Source: a virus
DNA length: 25,419 nucleotides
Strand: one strand, 5' to 3'
IMG/VR virus record: IMGVR_UViG_3300042374_000388
Span: 1 to 25,419 of that record
Of this stretch, positions 1-15,474 are shown in pieces. The notes beneath the pieces are model-generated. The model was not told the DNA's origin, did no database searches, and saw only the letters and a list, made by a program, of their open reading frames with translations. Positions within the stretch are counted from its first letter, which is position 1; every line of letters begins with the position of its first letter. A program made the position numbers and the translations under genes.

Positions 1-33
1 ATACTTGGAGCAGTCGAGAGTAGCATTGGACAT
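1..33 (-). CDS. 5' end of a divergent gene, truncated by window edge
   Basis: On the minus strand an ATG at 33-31 opens a frame that stays open to the window edge and reads MSNATLDCSKY. It is preceded by AAGGA seven bases upstream (complement of 41-45 region), an ideal ribosome-binding-site distance. Only 11 codons are visible, so no function can be given. If real, it marks a divergently transcribed gene block to the left, opposite to everything else in the window, and makes 34-735 a divergent promoter region. The open frame is too short to prove coding by itself; the good ribosome binding site is the main support. Confidence 0.5.
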   Translation of the reverse strand, partial: MSNATLDCSKY

Positions 34-94
34 AAGACGTTCCTTGTGGAAAGTGTGTAAATCGAACAAAACCGACAACCAACCTCAGCCCCTC

Positions 95-111
95 ACCTCC
101 CTTCGGGAGGT
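95..111. repeat. Hairpin repeat, copy 1
   Basis: ACCTCCC-TTC-GGGAGGT forms a 7-base-pair stem with a 3-base loop. The sequence just before it, CAGCCCCTC (86-94), is identical to that before copy 2 at 275-291. The two copies lie exactly 180 bases apart. The stem sequences differ but pairing is kept. No T run follows on the + strand, so it does not look like a simple terminator. Confidence 0.6.
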
Positions 112-274
112 CAAGAATCAATCCAGTAGCTCAAGTCAGCCATCTCAAAGGGAAACTCCTTGTTGAGTTCAGCCCAAACCAAATCCCAGTGATCCATGAG
201 AAGCACTCCAGAGGAAGGGAAGGGAACTGTCGATTGCCAGCAGCGGCAAAACGAACACCAAACCACAGCCCCTC

Positions 275-291
275 GGTTTCCTTCGGAAACC
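275..291. repeat. Hairpin repeat, copy 2
   Basis: GGTTTCC-TTC-GGAAACC forms a 7-base-pair stem with the same TTC loop as the hairpin at 95-111. The 27 bases just upstream match copy 1 at 22 positions, with CAGCCCCTC unchanged. Stem bases have changed on both arms together, which suggests that the folded form is what is kept. Confidence 0.6.
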
Positions 292-593
292 CCTGCCCGT
301 GCGTAAAGACTCTCTACGCGAGGAAAGCCGAACCAAGCCCTTGCCGAGCCAGACCGGCCAGACTTTGGGGGAGGGCTTTAGGAGGGGGAGAAGAACCTCT
401 AACCCCAGATAGGACAGAAGAGGGACAGGCTGCCCTAGGTCTTACTCTGGGGAATCATCAGTAAGGAGGGAAGGATTGTAAGGTTGTCATAACCCTATAC
501 TAGGAAAGGACTTACAACCGGCATTCTGTTCGATGCGATATGAACGACTCTAAATACCTAGGTTTGTAAGGCTATCTAGGTCTTTAAGAGAGG

Positions 594-616
594 CCCGCCC
601 ACCCCCCCCGCGCCCC
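594..616 (-). other. Putative G-quadruplex motif
   Basis: Read on the minus strand, 616 to 594 holds four G tracts of 4, 8, 3 and 3 bases separated by loops of 3, 1 and 1 bases. This meets the usual G3+N1-7 pattern for an intramolecular G-quadruplex. It sits in the divergent intergenic region, 120 bases before the endonuclease gene. Whether it folds in vivo is unknown. Confidence 0.5.
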
Positions 617-670
617 TGTGTGTGTAGGTCACGACCATGCCTTGGTTTTTTTGACAGAATGGGATTGTTA

Positions 671-686
671 CAAAAGCCCCTTACGG
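671..686 (+). promoter_or_regulatory. Shared leader element CAAAAGCCCCTTACGG, copy A
   Basis: The 16-base sequence occurs again, identically, at 6021-6036; a 12-base core recurs at 15068. Each copy is non-coding and 65-77 bases before a start codon. Here it lies 65 bases before the ATG at 736. A hairpin GTCTC/GAGAC (713-733) further down encloses the AAGGAG ribosome binding site (724-729). A TTGACA at 651-656 lies just upstream, but no good -10 follows it at normal spacing. It could be a promoter part or an RNA element. Confidence 0.45.
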
Positions 687-735
687 TTTCGTGTTCCCAT
701 TGGCAGGTTGAAGTCTCGCCCACAAGGAGAGACGA

Positions 736-3295: not shown

Positions 3296-4618
3296 ATGGC
3301 CACTATCCCTAAGCCACACGTCAAGCCGCCAGCCCGCCAGCTTCTGTCTGGCCTGACCAACCCGGCACAGCAGGCGCGTTCGCCACGGGTGAGCAAGCTC
3401 CTTGCAGGGCTTGGAGCAAAGGCTAACGACCCTGCGATGCCGCACCTAGACCTCGACGCCAACAACACTCTTGTCCAGAACAGCCTGTTCGACCAGAGCG
3501 GCCCCCATGCCGATCCAGACAATCCCACAATCAGCGACTTTGCAGATACGACAGTAGCCTACGACGCTTCCAAGGCCGAGTCAGAATCGGTGTACCAAGC
3601 AGCCCAAGCACGATCCCAGCCCGACCAATCACTCCCCAAGTGGACGGGCCTGTCTGACGTTGCTTTTTATCCGGCTGATTTCACTGGAAGGGACGGCGTT
3701 AGGAGAAGTGCGTCTATCGGAAAGACCACTCCCTACGACAGCCTGACGAGCTTTTTTGGAAGGGACAGGGCAAACGAGCAGGCCCGAAACTTTATTCAGC
3801 GCAATGGCCCCAGCATAGAAAATCACCCCAAGCACGGCATTAGGCTGGCTGTCCCGCACCACGATGAAACGACTCCCAATATGCACTCGCGGGGTGGCGA
3901 GGAGCATTTTGACAGGCCCATCTACATTTCCAGACATTCAGGCCCAGCCGAAGACAATGGCAGCATTTTCCCGGGCCACGACATATCGGTCTGGGCGAAA
4001 GACGATGATGGCCCGGGAATGATTGTCCACGAATTGGCTGGACATGGGGTTAGTGACGCCTCCCCGTTCGTTGACGGCAAAGCTATCGGCTACCGGGACG
4101 TTGATGACCAAGATGTCTGGGGTCAGCACCTAACGAGCGCACCAGAAGAAAAATTCGTAGAACTCCTTGCACAAGCGGCAGACGAGCATGGATATGACCT
4201 AGACCCAACAACTGGGGACACGCCATTCCTTGGGCCAAGAGGCGCAACCTCCGTCTACGAAAATCTTGCTCGCCGGTATTACACGCGGCCCTACGAGATG
4301 AGGGCAAATGGCCTAGTCTTCAAGAACAGGTCGCTTCAGAGGCATGGATTTAGCACCCTTGCAGAAGCCGGTAACGAGAAGGCTTTTCTTAAAAAGTCCT
4401 TGATGGACAGCGACATCGCACACCCCGATGACTACGGCAAGAGGCTGCCACACCCGACATTTGAGCCAGAGGAATACAACAAGCTCTTGCTGATGCAGAA
4501 GTCCATTTACCACTCCTTAGACCCAGATGGGAAAAAGAAGTGGCTTCGCATGATGCTTAGGTTTGGGATGCTTGGTGCCCCCGCCGCAATGGCCGCTGGT
4601 CAAGGGGAGGATCAGTAA
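3296..4618 (+). CDS. Hypothetical protein with zincin-like HELAGH motif
   Basis: A 440-residue protein of unknown function. Residues 1-120 look flexible and polar. A central stretch contains MIVHELAGHGVSD (H245, E246, H250), preceded by hydrophobic residues as in metallopeptidases, and a later RPYEMRANGL with E334 that could serve as a third ligand. The spacing is HExxxH, one residue longer than the normal HExxH, so zinc binding and catalysis are doubtful. The C-terminus ends in a hydrophobic patch (RMMLRFGMLGAPAAMAAG). It overlaps the next gene by one base (TAATG) and precedes the capsid module, so an internal virion or ejected protein is possible. Confidence 0.6.
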   Translation: MATIPKPHVKPPARQLLSGLTNPAQQARSPRVSKLLAGLGAKANDPAMPHLDLDANNTLVQNSLFDQSGPHADPDNPTISDFADTTVAYDASKAESESVYQAAQARSQPDQSLPKWTGLSDVAFYPADFTGRDGVRRSASIGKTTPYDSLTSFFGRDRANEQARNFIQRNGPSIENHPKHGIRLAVPHHDETTPNMHSRGGEEHFDRPIYISRHSGPAEDNGSIFPGHDISVWAKDDDGPGMIVHELAGHGVSDASPFVDGKAIGYRDVDDQDVWGQHLTSAPEEKFVELLAQAADEHGYDLDPTTGDTPFLGPRGATSVYENLARRYYTRPYEMRANGLVFKNRSLQRHGFSTLAEAGNEKAFLKKSLMDSDIAHPDDYGKRLPHPTFEPEEYNKLLLMQKSIYHSLDPDGKKKWLRMMLRFGMLGAPAAMAAGQGEDQ

Positions 4619-7218: not shown

Positions 7219-8352
7219 ATGGCAAGCTCGACTGACTGGGCCCGTAGCATTGGCACGACCATTACCAATTACCTGCGTGAGGAAGAGCTAAACACCTTCC
7301 GCAAGTTTAAGGTATTCGCGGCTCTGGAAGGTTCTGGCAATGTCATCATGAATCAGGGAGGCCTTGGCCTCAACTGGCAGGTTCGTTATCGGAACCAGCC
7401 TGTGACGGGAAACAATGGCGAGACTCCCCGAGTATTTGCCCGTCAGAACCTGTGGGTCGATGCCAATCTCCCTTACCGTGGCTATCAGGTAACAGATTCG
7501 ATCTACAAGCGCGAGATGCTTGAGAACCGTGGCCAGCAGGCCCTGATTAATGTTGCAGGCAAGATGGCTAGTCGGCTTCAGGAGTCGATGGAGCAGCATC
7601 TCGCCAAGGAAGTCTGGATCGACGGCAATCTCGCCGGTAACGAGCTTCGATTCCACGGCCTTGAGAGCTTCTGTGCCGTTGATGGCACTGTTAATGTCGT
7701 TGACGGCACCAAGCGTGTTGCCAGCCCCGATGACCCGTTTGGCTGGCCTGCGGATGTCTACGCTGGCATCAACACTGGCCTTGGTGCTGTGGCTGGTTCG
7801 CAGCTTCAGGGATCGTGGCCGAACGGCGTGGCCGATCCTGAGTACGACTTCTATAGTCCTATCGTAGTAAACTATACAAGTCGCTACTTCAAGGGTAAGG
7901 ACGAGTCGGGCACTGATAGCTACACATGGAAGGATCAGTGCGTTCAGGCTGTCCGCGAGGGCATTCAGCAGGCCAAACGCAATGACACCAAGGCTAGCCA
8001 GATCGACATGGTTATCTTGGATCGGAAGCTGTACATCGACTACATGAACAAGTTGGACAGCAAGGAACGCATCCTTGCCAACAACAACGAGGGTCTTCGT
8101 AGCTACGGCTTTAAGGACGTATTCCAGCAGGACGGTGTGGATATTTCGACTGAATACGCAGTGCCAACCGGCTGCGGATACGGCTTGTCCATTGCCAACA
8201 TGGAACTCCGCTGCATGGAGGGTTCCCTGATGACCGCCGAAGGCCCCTTCTACAACGAAGATACCCAGGCTTATCGGTATGTCGTGTCCGTATTAGCCAA
8301 CCTTAAGTTTGTTAGCCCACGCAACTTCTTCAAGTTGCAGGCCATCGCCTGA
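7219..8352 (+). CDS. Major capsid protein
   Basis: A 377-residue protein with the general look of an HK97-fold coat protein: no signal peptide, mixed alpha/beta, N-terminal helices (ITNYLREEELNTFRKF), then glycine-rich beta segments (MNQGGLGLNWQVRYRN), long middle region, and an ending LKFVSPRNFFKLQAIA typical of the conserved beta strand near the coat C-terminus. It lies after a scaffold-like gene and before a decoration-like gene, as expected. AAGGA precedes the ATG. Codons use C- and G-ending forms strongly, as in highly expressed genes. I identify it from overall pattern and order, not from a catalytic motif. Confidence 0.8.
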   Translation: MASSTDWARSIGTTITNYLREEELNTFRKFKVFAALEGSGNVIMNQGGLGLNWQVRYRNQPVTGNNGETPRVFARQNLWVDANLPYRGYQVTDSIYKREMLENRGQQALINVAGKMASRLQESMEQHLAKEVWIDGNLAGNELRFHGLESFCAVDGTVNVVDGTKRVASPDDPFGWPADVYAGINTGLGAVAGSQLQGSWPNGVADPEYDFYSPIVVNYTSRYFKGKDESGTDSYTWKDQCVQAVREGIQQAKRNDTKASQIDMVILDRKLYIDYMNKLDSKERILANNNEGLRSYGFKDVFQQDGVDISTEYAVPTGCGYGLSIANMELRCMEGSLMTAEGPFYNEDTQAYRYVVSVLANLKFVSPRNFFKLQAIA

Positions 8353-9125: not shown

Positions 9126-9470
9126 ATGTACAAGAACATCCTGATTGCTTCTGCGGTAGTTTTTGCGGGTCTTGTTGGCGTTGCCCTTGCTGGCTCTGCC
9201 CCTGACGTAGCTGACGTTGCTTCAAGCTCCTGCCACGGCAGTGCTGAGGCTCAGGCTGAGTCGAGTGGTTGCCATGGATCGTCTGCCAGCAAGTCTGCCA
9301 GCCGGTCTGTGTCGCGTCGTTCGACCCGGCGGCTGGAAGCCCGTGCTGCCCGCTCTGAGGCCCGTGCGGCTGCACTGGATTGCCGTGCGGAAGCCATTGA
9401 GGCCCGTGCGGAAGCCAAGGCTGAGGTAAGGTCGGCCAAGGCTGCAAAGTCATCCTGTCACGGTGGGTGA
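9126..9470 (+). CDS. Secreted Ala/Arg-rich protein with three CHG motifs
   Basis: A 114-residue protein from ATG 9126, with AAGGGAA just upstream; an in-frame GTG at 9075 lies inside the hairpin and is rejected. Residues 1-23 form a signal peptide (MYKNILIASAVVFAGLVGVALAG). SSSCHGSA, SSGCHGSS and SSCHGG place C-H-G motifs at residues 36-38, 49-51 and 111-113, with one more Cys at 86. Between them, residues 60-105 are a charged helix built of EAR-like repeats (LEARAARSEARAA), likely a coiled coil. The CHG groups could bind metal or haem-like ligands or form disulfides outside the cytoplasm. Small Ser/Cys/His/Gly secreted proteins of this style are known to me from planctomycetes. Function unknown. 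Confidence 0.7.
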   Translation: MYKNILIASAVVFAGLVGVALAGSAPDVADVASSSCHGSAEAQAESSGCHGSSASKSASRSVSRRSTRRLEARAARSEARAAALDCRAEAIEARAEAKAEVRSAKAAKSSCHGG

Positions 9471-9545: not shown

Positions 9546-9881
9546 ATGCTTGAGTTGATTATCAAGAACATGGACAAGGTTTTGATTGTTACTGGTGCGG
9601 TCGTTGTTTTGTTTTGGCCCAAGATTAAGGCAGCAATCGCCGCCGCAGGAACGGCACCAGCACCCAGCCCTTCCTGTTCATCGTGCCCTTGCTGTGCCCC
9701 TCCCAAGCCAGAGGAGCCCGTTTCCAACTGGGTCAACCGACAGCTTGAGGTCAGGGAATACTGCGAGCGGCGAGGTCTTGTCGATGCCGTCAAGGCTTGT
9801 GATGTGGTCATTACCGAGATGATTTCTGGCGAGCCTTCTCATGGCCACGCCGACAAGGTGGCATCCAAGAAGGGATGTTGA
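9546..9881 (+). CDS. Membrane-anchored Cys-rich protein
   Basis: A 111-residue protein. Residues about 11-34 form a transmembrane anchor (KVLIVTGAVVVLFW), followed by an Ala/Pro linker and a cysteine cluster CSSCPCC (C44, C47, C49, C50), then a helical domain (VNRQLEVREYCERRGLVDAV) with C73 and C85, and a C-terminal Cys at 111. GGAGG at 9532-9536 is a good ribosome binding site. The next gene begins one base after its stop. The Cys cluster may bind metal or make disulfides. No family recognised; role probably at the cell envelope. Confidence 0.65.
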   Translation: MLELIIKNMDKVLIVTGAVVVLFWPKIKAAIAAAGTAPAPSPSCSSCPCCAPPKPEEPVSNWVNRQLEVREYCERRGLVDAVKACDVVITEMISGEPSHGHADKVASKKGC

Positions 9882-9882
9882 A

Positions 9883-10353
9883 ATGGGCAGTGGCGATCTT
9901 TTCCGAGTGGCAATAGTTGTCGGTGGCCTGCTTCTGTACTTCCAGAGCCAGAAACCCCCAGACAACCCCAAGCCGGACGAGCCAAAGCCAGTCCCGGTTG
10001 AGCCGGTGCCGCCATACACAGGCCCGTATCAGTCGCTGCACCAGTCCTCTCGTCCAATGACCGTAGAGGACAGGGATGCTTTGTCTGGTGGGTTTAAGGC
10101 CGGGTACGACATGGCAATGGCTGACAGCAAGGGTCTGATTAAGCCAACGAACGTAGCTCAGGACTTCGTGGTTGGCCTGCTCCAGTTTGACTACAACGGC
10201 ATCTACAAGCCCTCTGCAAAGTATCCATCGGTGGTGACGGAGGTTTCCAAGATCATGGAGGAGGTCTTGGGGACTGATGTCAAAGACATGAGCCCGACCG
10301 AGCGAGATAAGTTCATTCAGTCTCTCCTTGAAATGAGTAAGGCGGTGAAGTGA
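9883..10353 (+). CDS. Membrane-anchored protein with proline linker
   Basis: A 156-residue protein from ATG 9883, with AGGGA about ten bases before; an ATG at 9841 in frame lies inside the preceding gene and is less likely. Residues 5-20 (DLFRVAIVVGGLLLYF) are a membrane segment, 23-47 a Pro/Lys/Glu linker (KPDEPKPVPVEPVPP), and the rest a helical domain with SGGFKAGYDMAMADS. A like phrase (SSGFEGAIYDP) appears near the start of the peptidase gene that follows, which overlaps by TGATG. It might hold the peptidase near the membrane (inference). Confidence 0.65.
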   Translation: MGSGDLFRVAIVVGGLLLYFQSQKPPDNPKPDEPKPVPVEPVPPYTGPYQSLHQSSRPMTVEDRDALSGGFKAGYDMAMADSKGLIKPTNVAQDFVVGLLQFDYNGIYKPSAKYPSVVTEVSKIMEEVLGTDVKDMSPTERDKFIQSLLEMSKAVK

Positions 10354-11412: not shown

Positions 11413-12066
11413 ATGCGGCACCTCCTGCTTGCCCTGCTGTTGCTGGCTCTTCCCCGGGCTGCCTTCGGGCTTCCGGTTGGGGAGCTTCGTCGGCTTGCGG
11501 CTTACGAGGCATACCTTGTTGCCACGGCTGTGCCACCCACGCCGTGCAAGCCGGATGGGCCATCCCGCCCGGGGGTCTGTCCTGAGTGCGATGGTTCTGG
11601 CAAGGTCGGAGATGGAACTGTTTTCATGGAATGTGGTCGCTGTGGTGGGACTGGCAAGGTCAGTTCTAGTGCCCCCAGCTTCGGTGCCACCCCTCAGGTG
11701 ATTGCCCCGCCGGTCATAGTGCCGTCTATGCCAACGCCGGTCCCCGGGCCTCAGGCCATTCGTAGCCCAATGCCGGTTCCTCAGGTTATTCGCAGTCCCG
11801 GCCCTCAGTGGAATGTCGAGGGGAAAAACAACTACTCAACATTTGAGTTGGCTGACCACCTTCGCCGGGTGCATGGAGTGAGCGTGGACGGCCAGACGCG
11901 GGAGCAGCTAGAAGCGATGCACGACAACCTGCACAACTCCGAGGTCAGGTCTGCTCCGGTCATCCGGCCACCTGCGCCGACAATTCGTTCATGCCCCAAC
12001 GGGCAGTGCCCAACCTCTGGGCAGTCCTACCAAAGTTCACCAAGACGGGGGATTTTCCGCAGATGA
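11413..12066 (+). CDS. Secreted proline-rich protein with DnaJ-type zinc motifs
   Basis: A 217-residue protein. Residues 1-19 are a signal peptide (MRHLLLALLLLALPRAAFG). CPECDGSGK (C56, C59) and CGRCGGTGK (C74, C77) form two CxxCxGxG motifs as in the DnaJ zinc finger, but with no J domain. Residues 95-140 are a Pro-rich repeat region with PQVIAPP, PQAIRSP and PQVIRSP units. Residues about 142-175 look folded (YSTFELADHLRRVHGVS, HDNLHNSE), and the end has CPNGQCP, a motif I know from many planctomycete proteins. It may act as an exported chaperone-like or redox-linked partner in this cassette; function not known. Confidence 0.65.
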   Translation: MRHLLLALLLLALPRAAFGLPVGELRRLAAYEAYLVATAVPPTPCKPDGPSRPGVCPECDGSGKVGDGTVFMECGRCGGTGKVSSSAPSFGATPQVIAPPVIVPSMPTPVPGPQAIRSPMPVPQVIRSPGPQWNVEGKNNYSTFELADHLRRVHGVSVDGQTREQLEAMHDNLHNSEVRSAPVIRPPAPTIRSCPNGQCPTSGQSYQSSPRRGIFRR

Positions 12067-12872: not shown

Positions 12873-13543
12873 GCGAAGCACCAAAGCCGCCGGATCAGAC
12901 AAGGCAGTGCGACAACTGCAAGCAGGTGAAGCCGCTTACCACGAAGCACTTCCCTCGGGTTGTCGGGACTCAGCACAACTATCAGTGGGTGTGCCGCCCC
13001 TGCAAGGTCAAGCTCAAGCAGCAGGCACAGATGGAGCGGATGGAAAGGAACGCCATCGGCACCTACCTCTCTCGGACTGTCTCTGGCGGGACTAACATCC
13101 CCCACACGGCAGAGCTTCTGGAAGGAATCATGCACTACTTTGGTGGTGCCAATGGATTTGCCAGCTTGGTGATGAAGCAATACTTTGAGTCCCCACCCGG
13201 CAGCCGGATGCGTAATTCCCTGCTGGAGATGGTTGTCCGGCTGGCCTCCAAGAACACCGAGCAGGGTGGGGCAAAGAAGCCCATCGACCTCTACTCAGAA
13301 GAAGAGCTAGAGGCAGAGATCGACCAGCGGCTCAGACAGGCTGTCCTGACCTACGGAAATGTGAGGCACATAGATGTCCAAGAAGAAAACAAGCCAGATT
13401 CCACCAACGCCGCTGCCAACGGTCCAGAGCATTTCGAGCTTCCAGCGGGACGAGTTGAAGAGCTTGCAGAGCGAGCTATCGGAGAGGCGAATAGAAGCCT
13501 TGAGGCTATACAAGCCAACCGCGAGGCAGAGGGAGTTTCATGA
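12869..13543 (+). CDS. Zinc-motif protein, possible small terminase subunit
   Basis: A 224-residue protein. Its N-terminus has CDNCKQVKPLTTKHFPR and VCRPC, that is C14, C17, C42 and C45, a treble-clef-like zinc site as seen near HNH or endonuclease VII-type proteins. Residues 50-150 are helical with EKKPIDLYSEEELE-like acidic stretch (actual KKPIDLYSEEELEAEI), and the C-terminus is a charged helix (RVEELAERAIGEANRSLEA). It lies directly before, and overlaps by 170 bases, the large terminase, the classical site of the small subunit that recognises phage DNA. The fold is not the usual small-terminase HTH, so the call is tentative. Confidence 0.5.
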   Translation: MSEAPKPPDQTRQCDNCKQVKPLTTKHFPRVVGTQHNYQWVCRPCKVKLKQQAQMERMERNAIGTYLSRTVSGGTNIPHTAELLEGIMHYFGGANGFASLVMKQYFESPPGSRMRNSLLEMVVRLASKNTEQGGAKKPIDLYSEEELEAEIDQRLRQAVLTYGNVRHIDVQEENKPDSTNAAANGPEHFELPAGRVEELAERAIGEANRSLEAIQANREAEGVS

Positions 13544-15062
13544 GTGCAAGTCCAGCGAAACACTTGTGCTTGGTGGAAATAGATCGGGCAAGTCACTCTG
13601 CTCATTCATAGAGGACGCATGGGCCGCAACTGGAACCCATCCCGTAGAAGGAAAGTACAGAAAAGAGGGCGGGAACCTCGTCATCGTAGGCCAGAACTGG
13701 AAGCACATCGGTCTAGTGGTAGTGCCCTATTTGTTCAAGGCCGGGGCCTTCAAGATCATCAGGGACAAGGAGACGAACCAGTTCCGAGCCTTCGATCCGG
13801 TGGCCGACGCCGACAGGCTGAAGGAAGCCAAGCCTGCACCGCCGCTGATCCCGCCCCGGATGGTCAAGAGCTTTTCGTGGGTGCTGAAGTCCGCAGGCTA
13901 CTTGAACTCCTGCGAGCTAGTTAATGGCTGGACTATCTATTGCTTCTCCTCGGAAGGTGATCCACCCCAAGGATTTCAAGCGGACAGAGTGCATATAGAT
14001 GAAGACCTTAACAACGAGGCATGGGTTCCAGAAATGCAAGCCCGCCTTGCCGACAGAAAAGGGCTCTTCTGCTGGTCTGCAATGCCCCATAGCAAGAATG
14101 AGGCACTCCTTGGCCTGAACGAAAGAGCAGACAAGGCAGAGGAGGTCGGAGACACAAAGGACATAAAGAGGTTCGTCCTAAGGTTTCTGGACAATCCTCA
14201 CATCGACAGCGACGAAAAGCGTAAGGCCATTGAGCGATGGTCGGCCATTGGGGATGACGTTCTCAGGCAGAGGTCTGAGGGCGAGTTCGTCATTGACTCC
14301 ATTCTGGTCTACCCCAACTTTAACCCGTCCATCCATGGGTTTGATCTATCCACGATTGAGGGTGGGGAGATACCGGATGACTGGTGTCGATATGCCGTCG
14401 TGGACCCGGGGCATGCCGTAACCGCAGTCCTGTTCGCAGCCGTCCCCCCCGGGGCAGACCGGATCGTGTGCTACGACGAGCTTTACATAAGGAACTGCAA
14501 CGCCACCATATTTGCCTCTGAGTTTCATAAGAAGGTGCAGGGCAAGAAGTTTTACGCCTTCCTAATTGACGCCCATGGTGCCCGCCTGACCGATATTGGC
14601 TCAGGCAAATCCCCTCAAGAACAGTATTCGGAGCAGCTTTCTGCCCTCGGGGTGAGGTCAAAAGTCACCGGGGCTAGCTTCATTCCCGGCTCAGATGACA
14701 TTCAGGGTGGACTTCAGGCAGTCCGAATGTCCATGCACATCAGGCCAGAGGGCACCCCAAGGTTCCGGTATGTCAGAAGCCGCATGCCCAATTTTGAGCG
14801 GGAACTGAAGCGGTACAAGAAAAAGACTATCAACGTGGCTGGGACTTCGGTTGTGACCGATGAGCCCAACAAGCGCGGCGAGTTTCACCTAGTGGACTGC
14901 CTGAGATACCTGATGGCCTACGATCCCCAATACCACAGGCCTGAGGTTGTGGCAGAAGTTCCTTGGTACGTCTCTTGGAAAGCCAGAAGGGATAAGGAGC
15001 AGGGCAAGTCCAATACTATTTACTTAGCCCCAAACTCCTACACTGAAGTCTACATCGCATAG
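13374..15062 (+). CDS. terL: Terminase large subunit
   Basis: A 562-residue packaging motor that cuts concatemeric DNA and pumps it into the prohead. The N-terminal ATPase shows RLYKPTARQREFH as adenine-side motif, Walker A GGNRSGKS (67-74) and Walker B VHIDED (206-211) with the catalytic Glu at 210. The C-terminal RNase H-like nuclease shows AVVDPG (D344), FLIDAHG (D399) and FHLVDCLRYL (D508). The ATG at 13374 lies inside the preceding gene in another frame, with TGAGG nine bases before it. No other ATG occurs before the Walker A box, so either this start or a TTG (for example in DELKSLQ) is used. Length is normal for the family. Confidence 0.95.
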   Translation: MSKKKTSQIPPTPLPTVQSISSFQRDELKSLQSELSERRIEALRLYKPTARQREFHECKSSETLVLGGNRSGKSLCSFIEDAWAATGTHPVEGKYRKEGGNLVIVGQNWKHIGLVVVPYLFKAGAFKIIRDKETNQFRAFDPVADADRLKEAKPAPPLIPPRMVKSFSWVLKSAGYLNSCELVNGWTIYCFSSEGDPPQGFQADRVHIDEDLNNEAWVPEMQARLADRKGLFCWSAMPHSKNEALLGLNERADKAEEVGDTKDIKRFVLRFLDNPHIDSDEKRKAIERWSAIGDDVLRQRSEGEFVIDSILVYPNFNPSIHGFDLSTIEGGEIPDDWCRYAVVDPGHAVTAVLFAAVPPGADRIVCYDELYIRNCNATIFASEFHKKVQGKKFYAFLIDAHGARLTDIGSGKSPQEQYSEQLSALGVRSKVTGASFIPGSDDIQGGLQAVRMSMHIRPEGTPRFRYVRSRMPNFERELKRYKKKTINVAGTSVVTDEPNKRGEFHLVDCLRYLMAYDPQYHRPEVVAEVPWYVSWKARRDKEQGKSNTIYLAPNSYTEVYIA

Positions 15063-15066
15063 TCGC

Positions 15067-15083
15067 ACAAAAGCCCCTTTTGT
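15067..15083 (+). promoter_or_regulatory. Shared leader element, copy C, within a hairpin
   Basis: ACAAAAG-CCC-CTTTTGT is a 7-base-pair stem with a 3-base loop starting five bases after the large terminase stop. It contains the 12-base core CAAAAGCCCCTT (15068-15079) shared with 671 and 6021, and starts 77 bases before the next ATG. The core may also pair CCCC with GGGG downstream (15086-15089). A second hairpin GTCTGT/ACAGAC (15109-15125) lies before the ribosome binding site GGAGG. It could act as a terminator, a promoter-linked site or both. Confidence 0.45.
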
Positions 15084-15144
15084 ACGGGGGTTCCCTCTGG
15101 AAGATGGTGTCTGTGGTTGACAGACCCGTTTCTCTGGAGGCTTT

Positions 15145-15474
15145 ATGGCAGACTTCAAGATGCCCGAAGTGGGCATTGGTGATCTCGTCCTTTTCTATGA
15201 CAACCCGTTCTCCCCTGACGCCCACTCTATGGGCTGGGTTTCTACGAAGCCGGGTGTGCAGACGGTCAAAGTCCTGATTTTTGCGGAAGAAGCTGGCTTT
15301 ATTGAGAAGCCCTCTGTCCGACACAAGGACGATCCGTTCTGGCGAGAGAGTGAGACTGCACAGGCGTGGGGACGCTGGGGCTGCTGGGATTTCCACCCAA
15401 GCACCCGTGCCCTGAAGGAGCTTCAGACCCTCCTTACCAAGTCAAAGATTGAGGCTGCCAAGAAGGGTGGATGA
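15145..15474 (+). CDS. Hypothetical protein, 109 residues
   Basis: Begins MADFKMPEVGIGDLVLFYDN, with beta-like segments (VGIGDLVLFY, VKVLIFAEEAG) and a Trp-rich end (DPFWRESETAQAWGRWGCWDFH), then a basic helix. The start has GGAGG nearby (15133-15137) in the leader ending CTTTATG. No family known to me. The VGDLVLFYDNP phrase suggests a small SH3- or KOW-like beta barrel, which is a weak guess. It stands between packaging genes and the portal, and is cytoplasmic (no signal or membrane segment). Confidence 0.7.
   Translation: MADFKMPEVGIGDLVLFYDNPFSPDAHSMGWVSTKPGVQTVKVLIFAEEAGFIEKPSVRHKDDPFWRESETAQAWGRWGCWDFHPSTRALKELQTLLTKSKIEAAKKGG

Follow-up and report, generated by a model that had tools for sequence, protein, structure and literature searches.

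The window, the whole stretch of DNA analysed here (25,419 bases), is an entire IMG/VR record (IMGVR_UViG_3300042374_000388) that is classed as linear and is probably a fragment. Its plus strand encodes an HNH protein (736-1476), a 562-aa protein with a weak terminase match, with which relatives align (13374-15062), a major-head-like protein, a portal protein, and tail fibres. The left end is occupied by two minus-strand reading frames: a gene start (MSNATLDCSKY...; 1..33) that continues past the left end, with only 11 residues inside the window, and a small ORF of 28 aa (MDHWDLVWAELNKEFPFEMADLSYWIDS; 111..197), which is presumably a real gene. A non-coding stretch (292..735) leads from these minus-strand genes to the plus-strand genes. 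In the related genome G004, a gene with similar first residues (MSTVAFDPTKF...) lies in the same place as the MSNATLDCSKY... gene, and a 44-aa ORF is found where the window has the 28-aa ORF. A relaxase site was considered on the basis of a weak Mob_Pre match at 3296-4618 and was dropped, given that the motif is absent from the G004 homologue and that PDB and NCBIfam yielded nothing useful.

Two hairpins lie in this left-end region, at the coordinates given in the preliminary description: ACCTCCC-TTC-GGGAGGT (95-111) and GGTTTCC-TTC-GGAAACC (275-291). On the plus strand both share the upstream CAGCCCCTC and the TTC loop while their stems differ, and the reported likeness of the flanks was reproduced (22 of 27 upstream bases identical). 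The strand on which the pair was presented has to be revised, however: it is the minus strand that makes sense, on which the loop reads GAA and the common flank lies 3' of the hairpin. Read in this direction, the element consists of a 7-bp stem, a GAA triloop, two bases, and a box (GAGGGGCTGWGGTTKG), with a start codon 61 or 77 nt downstream that is in each case accompanied by a Shine-Dalgarno-like site. Hairpin 1 (95..111, minus strand) is directly followed on its 3' side by box 1 (GAGGGGCTGAGGTTGGT; 78..94, minus strand), and the MSNATLDCSKY... gene starts 61 nt from it, with AAGGA at 41-45. Hairpin 2 (275..291, minus strand) has box 2 (GAGGGGCTGTGGTTTGG; 258..274, minus strand), and the 28-aa ORF begins 77 nt after it, with GGAG at 206-209; the stop codon of this ORF overlaps hairpin 1 by one base. 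Against a covariance model of the element, hairpins 1 and 2 score 37.5 and 36.3 bits, respectively, each copy being itself in the model. The start-to-start distance of 180 bases, which had been singled out, is correct in the window but is no property of the element (239 in G004, 392 in G011).

A portal protein query of IMG/VR gave 146 relatives, of which 80 were kept; several of these records are 60-65 kb. A listing of hairpins in 15 regions of relatives revealed the same element, with varied stems, in G004 (L190/L210) and G032 (L207), and a hairpin-plus-motif scan of 286 sequences returned 22 distinct perfect-motif matches with 7/7 pairs, vs none in reversed sequences. A covariance model built from 23 copies and searched against 89 sequences (E ≤ 0.01) identified 32 copies in 13 phage records: two in the window, five in G004, eight in G032, and seven in G033, the remaining ten being spread over nine smaller contigs. 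The same GTCTGTC copy accounts for nine of these ten, such that the 32 copies are partly non-independent and comprise 16 distinct stems. The copies of G004, G032, and G033 lie, in each genome, on a single strand and within one region of small genes beside structural genes, and this region would be of an early type.

The element is not universal in the group, as judged from G011 and G006. At two comparable places in G011 (L289:7506, 7898) there is another hairpin (6 bp, GTA loop) with another box (...TCAGTGTCG...), and the syntenic leader of G006 has no perfect hairpin, only two leader repeats whose stems are short or imperfect. The covariance model run over 25 records matched nine at E ≤ 0.1, six of them with real copies and three (G011, G027, G037) with weak matches only. 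In a de novo scan of 16 related records, several of them incomplete, 11 had no such hairpin pair; records without pairs served as the control, reversed sequence being void by symmetry. A pattern scan of IMG/VR with the window-type flank found seven stretches, none with a paired stem, and Rfam 15 gave no match at the gathering threshold in the window or in six loci of relatives. Regarding cultured relatives, there was no DNA match in the phage collection and there were two distant portal matches (~22% identity); a portal scan of GTDB genomes for hosts confirmed no relative. Among the titles and abstract openings listed from an open-access library, none describes such an element, nor does any among those on hammerhead and tRNA-like intergenic elements of phages.

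Two further leader features were noticed. By eye, G020 (L191 6000-6500) again has other hairpins with a different box in the leaders of comparable genes. The window (303-320) and G011 (L289:7481-7500) share an imperfect palindrome around GTAAAGACTC, upstream (in the gene sense) of the first hairpin and followed in both by GGGCAGG next to the hairpin; this palindrome is a possible operator.

The folded shape of the element appears to be kept by selection. The proposal that both arms had changed together, through selection for the folded form, is well supported by an alignment of 23 copies, which were chosen partly by their pairing and omit the copy with a 4-nt loop (L190 4044-4078): all 161 pair cells are Watson-Crick, 73 represent two-sided changes and none (0/161) a one-sided change, and each of the seven stem pairs is altered on both sides somewhere in the set. 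The covariation score is 1.132, compared to at most 0.251 with the partners slid, and none of 500 shuffles reaches the percentage paired, the count of two-sided cells, or the covariation score, so the retention of pairing in relatives, for which a covariation check had been suggested, is borne out. Two other measures are unexceptional vs the shuffles (pairs with double change, 56/500; number of pair types, 326/500). Compensation is also seen between syntenic copies: hairpin 2 reads GGTTTCC in the window and GCCCAGC in G004, hairpin 1 reads ACCTCCC and GCCCTCC, respectively, all of them paired, and ahead of a gene that begins identically in both genomes (MATSDIIAAM), G032 has GCTCAAC and G033 has AAATAGC.

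Pairing is all-or-none and free of G.U, claims that are carried by a box-only search of seven records that ignores pairing. Of the 69 box matches, 26 are paired at 7/7 stem positions, 43 at 5/7 or fewer, and none at 6/7; stems completed by G.U were absent, barring off-register readings of already perfect copies. G.U accounts for 20 of 163 pairs in 13 terminators from comparable regions, a contrast that is suggestive only because terminators are longer than the element hairpins; the corresponding Fisher value (5e-5) is indicative only, the copy list having required a perfect stem.

These results bear on whether the window pair could be due to chance, that is, an old 40-bp duplication that happened to hold two hairpins. 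A repeat search does place both hairpins in a 40-nt direct repeat (78% identity, 180-base spacing), and 7-bp hairpins are common in the window: six perfect ones with a loop of 3-5 were found vs a mean of 6.1 in 50 order-1 Markov shuffles, and four with a 3-nt loop vs 2.0. The non-chance part is the occurrence of two hairpins with the same flank and four stem pairs altered on both sides. The likelihood of a chance origin is virtually nil given 32 copies in 13 records and covariation beyond 500 shuffles; moreover, a scan with a merged window/G004 box gave nine matches, of which two are real copies (both in G004) and the other seven, in other contigs, pair at 1-3 of 7 positions.

In a list of 28 copies, for which a perfect stem was required, the loop is GGA (19), GAA (5), AGA (2), AAA (1), or TAAC (1); it is thus 3 nt long in 27 of 28 copies and 4 nt in one, and a GNA triloop is present in 24. 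All 28 copies (nine records; several copies near-identical) have an ATG with a Shine-Dalgarno-like site 56-104 nt downstream on the same strand; in the gene regions of G004, G032, and G033, the corresponding background over this span is 18.5% for sense positions and 3.2% for antisense ones. Outside the nine contigs described below, the copies are mostly followed by small genes without assigned identity (few were searched). One copy in G004 leads an AAA/MoxR-like ATPase gene (L210:11778-14654), which adjoins a DUF2201 metallopeptidase/VWA gene.

In many copies the stop codon of an upstream gene lies 1-21 nt before the hairpin or inside it. Together with the terminators or tRNA-like folds after some G032 and G033 copies, this would accord with a 3'-end element of the upstream gene (a terminator, stabiliser, or processing site at stop codons), which we nevertheless regard as very unlikely. 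Neither in the window nor in G004 is the first copy immediately preceded by a gene, and in G032 about 450 nt of non-coding DNA extend to a same-strand HNH gene. An intrinsic-terminator test found no U-tract behind the element hairpin, where NNG and then the box follow instead, and in the cassettes considered next the element moves with the downstream gene.

Nine sister contigs carry the element in front of an endonuclease-like gene, which is placed at either of two sites. In seven of these, the element and a 228-aa gene are directly behind the terL stop codon (e.g., L221:10218-10982), whereas in L225 and L240 (around 7052) the element and a 241-aa gene are ahead of terL, and the post-terL site is empty. 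The L221 protein matches endonuclease VII (phrog_1035, E 1.5e-10), with only a weak match in Pfam. The empty site of G032 reads ...GCGTAA|CTATTG, vs ...TAACACA-hairpin ... TAA|CTATTG for the filled site, and the cassette sequence common to both sites begins at TAACACA, directly before the hairpin. Thus, the hairpin and box belong to the downstream gene and form its left edge.

An endonuclease-VII-like cassette at two sites, with empty sites in relatives, also invites a reading of the element as a recombination module, either a boundary for the shuffling of gene cassettes or a mark of nuclease-gene homing, with stems kept perfect by template switching; perfect palindromes without intermediates would be expected from quasi-palindrome correction. 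We consider this quite improbable, since the stems vary among copies and so offer no homology, correction alone would not preserve the loop, the box, and the distance to the start codon, and the genes behind the copies are, apart from those contigs, mostly small ones.

Regarding promoters, one locus present in two genomes (G032 34949, G033 36524) has a sigma70-like promoter (TTGACA or TTGACG, 18 nt, TAGGAT; scores 10 and 9 of 12) that ends 10 nt before the hairpin, which would place the hairpin at the 5' end of the RNA at this locus. A general upstream sigma70 promoter was rejected: the mean score is 6.45 for 22 copies vs 6.36 for background, and the other 20 of the 22 scored copies are unexceptional, the best being window hairpin 1 (8 of 12), a score reached by 132 of 1500 background stretches. 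Downstream, six copies (three each in G032 and G033) have a terminator-like hairpin that begins 23-50 nt after the element hairpin and ends shortly before the start codon; one of these six has a weak T-tail. A loose terminator scan of the window and G004 detected only weak T-rich matches between element and gene. The gene order in G004 and G011 is hairpin - gene - terminator - hairpin - gene.

The intergenic regions of G032 and G033 also contain RNA-like folds. Type II hammerhead-like ribozymes, recognised mostly by eye from a GAAA core, a GTC cleavage site, and CTGANGA, lie between genes in G032 (L207:8808-8865, 9680-9738, 11474-11570) and at four places in G033; the fold at 9680-9738 scores 31.1 bits against RF02276, below the gathering score of 37. 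Behind four hairpin-box copies there are tRNA-like folds that have a T-arm without a full cloverleaf (L207:8462-8507, 10131-10179, and, by eye, ~7925-7985 and 9262-9312), the first two of which score 32.8 and 22.7 bits against RF01684 (mascRNA), below the gathering score of 42.5. The hammerhead-like and tRNA-like folds take comparable places between genes in G032 and G033.

Our tentative reading is that genes in a group of uncultured phages carry the element as a portable 5' leader, and that it acts in the transcript. The folded hairpin would form the 5' end of the message or lie close to it, followed by the conserved box; hairpin and box may be bound by RNA polymerase or by a phage or host factor, and the bound leader would allow the downstream gene to be transcribed through terminators and/or to remain stable and be translated. 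The leftward gene set would be headed by the first copy (275-291), and each subsequent copy would serve one gene. Action as RNA is favoured by the leader position, by terminators that could only be passed by read-through, by the promoter-hairpin distance at one locus, and by the RNA-like devices nearby, as well as by the association of the element with the downstream gene, the covariation, and the all-or-none pairing. It is weakened by the lack of G.U pairs and of Rfam matches, by the absence of the pair from 11 of 16 records, by the imperfect stems of G006, by the unexceptional sigma70 scores of 20 of 22 copies, and by the finding of no more than weak T-rich terminator matches between element and gene in the window and G004. 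RNA folding does not single out the two window leaders (z of -0.35 and -1.52); of eight folded leaders, two (L207 9244, L232 8203) lack the hairpin in the minimum-energy fold, and another two lack it in the centroid.

The RNA leader element is slightly favoured over its main rival, a DNA-hairpin promoter, which we regard as possible though doubtful. In the latter, the hairpin would be extruded from supercoiled DNA and recognised together with the box by a polymerase or activator, much as the virion RNA polymerase of phage N4 does at its early promoters, with transcription starting, at each copy, from the invariant G that lies two bases past the hairpin. The lack of half-changed pairs (23 copies) and of G.U stems (69 box matches) is in keeping with this, as is the fact that the cassettes have only TAACACA in common upstream of the hairpin; the terminator - hairpin - gene - terminator order in G004 and G011 resembles single transcription units. 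GNA triloops belong to the loop class of very stable DNA mini-hairpins (PMC4686876), and the geometry resembles that of N4 promoters (PMC4496689). Against a DNA-hairpin promoter, there is no ORF >1300 aa (largest 1248 aa in G004 and 1267 aa in G032; these records are near 64 kb, and their completeness is unproven). The polymerase domains PF00940 (12 records, control silent) and PF14700 (11 records, no control over the cut-off) gave no match, both of these being weak absences, and three large G004 proteins searched by sequence against PDB gave no useful match to a polymerase. In addition, the GNA loop occupies the coding strand, opposite to that used by N4; in the three copies folded as DNA, the two strands give the same predicted hairpin energy; and the terminator-like hairpins of the six G032 and G033 copies are within 50 nt of the element hairpin. 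A more specific version, rather unlikely in our view, is that the element represents a second, independently evolved class of DNA-hairpin promoter, in which extruded 7-bp GNA-loop hairpins and a downstream box would be served by a novel polymerase or activator and act as a plug-in promoter of mobile nuclease genes.

Phage repeats associated with gene starts are of a known kind; fully compensated stems are unusual. The nearest known system in position is SAS/ESAS of Cluster K mycobacteriophages, which likewise has repeats ahead of gene starts. There, the repeats are typically in one orientation before the starts of many non-structural genes, with inverted repeats (ESAS) upstream of about half and a consensus that varies by subcluster (PMC3203893). 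SAS is a 13-bp repeat that takes the position of the ribosome-binding site, 3-7 bp from the start codon, and the arms of ESAS are 17 bp long, follow a consensus sequence, and are separated by mostly 4-13 bp; its authors found little support for mRNA hairpins (PMC3203893). The element, in contrast, has 7-bp arms of free sequence with full compensation, lies 56-104 nt from the start codon, and has another box sequence.

In shape, the nearest system is the N4 promoter, with which the element shares a short stem (7 bp) and a 3-nt loop (27 of 28 copies). The stem of N4 promoters is 5-7 bp, and the N4 virion RNA polymerase is ~3500 aa; the comparison of geometry drew on the sequence of N4 P2, whose 7-bp form has a 2-nt spacing to the start. 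A polymerase of N4 size is not seen among the ORFs of G004 and G032, and the controls of the polymerase-domain searches are weak. The purine loop is on the template strand in N4, whereas in all copies listed (28 of 28) the element has it on the coding strand of the gene that follows, and conservation of the element extends ~13-17 nt past the hairpin on the gene side. N4 early promoters have, at a fixed distance ahead of the start site, a 3-nt-loop hairpin whose centre is near -11; they are conserved from -17 to +1, and their non-conserved stem bases are free while pairing is kept (PMC4496689).

In possible action, the nearest system is HK022 put, which shares a hairpin in the leaders of a gene set with intrinsic terminators. 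The put RNA is an antitermination element that lets transcription pass downstream terminators with no protein factor. The boxB/boxA of lambda nut is likewise a hairpin element in the leaders of a terminator-containing gene set. The put site is ~70 nt with two bulged stem-loops, present in two copies in HK022 (PMC9378689). Rather than two stem-loops, the element has one perfect 7-bp hairpin plus a box common to the aligned copies, in up to eight copies. At least one defining feature of each of SAS/ESAS, N4 promoters, and put, as tested, is thus lacking, and the element is therefore filed under none of the three.

The T4-type PeSLs (promoter - stem-loop modules) also resemble the element, as they are intergenic hairpin modules that recur and travel together with genes. 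They are reportedly composite promoter-terminator motifs and have reportedly been proposed as boundaries for shuffling gene cassettes. The PeSL module contains a sigma70 early promoter, whereas a sigma70 promoter is not above background at 20 of 22 copies of the element, which is also without a U-tract.

With natural covariation that is two-sided only in a palindrome of 17 nt, gene control that depends on structure becomes open to direct testing in dsDNA phages, and a family of 32 copies with a box yields simple predictions by which action as RNA and as DNA can be told apart. If the element acts as RNA, it would be a very small leader element with up to eight uses per genome, moved with endonuclease genes. 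Hairpin promoters are, to our knowledge, confined to N4-like phages, which, if the element acts as DNA, would no longer be their sole known users.

A further perfect hairpin with a 7-bp stem and a 3-nt loop (ACAAAAG-CCC-CTTTTGT) lies just past the terminase stop codon of the window (15067-15145). The next ATG is ~61 nt on, with CTCTGG and CTGTGGTTG further on, and this hairpin is possibly a related leader on the plus strand.
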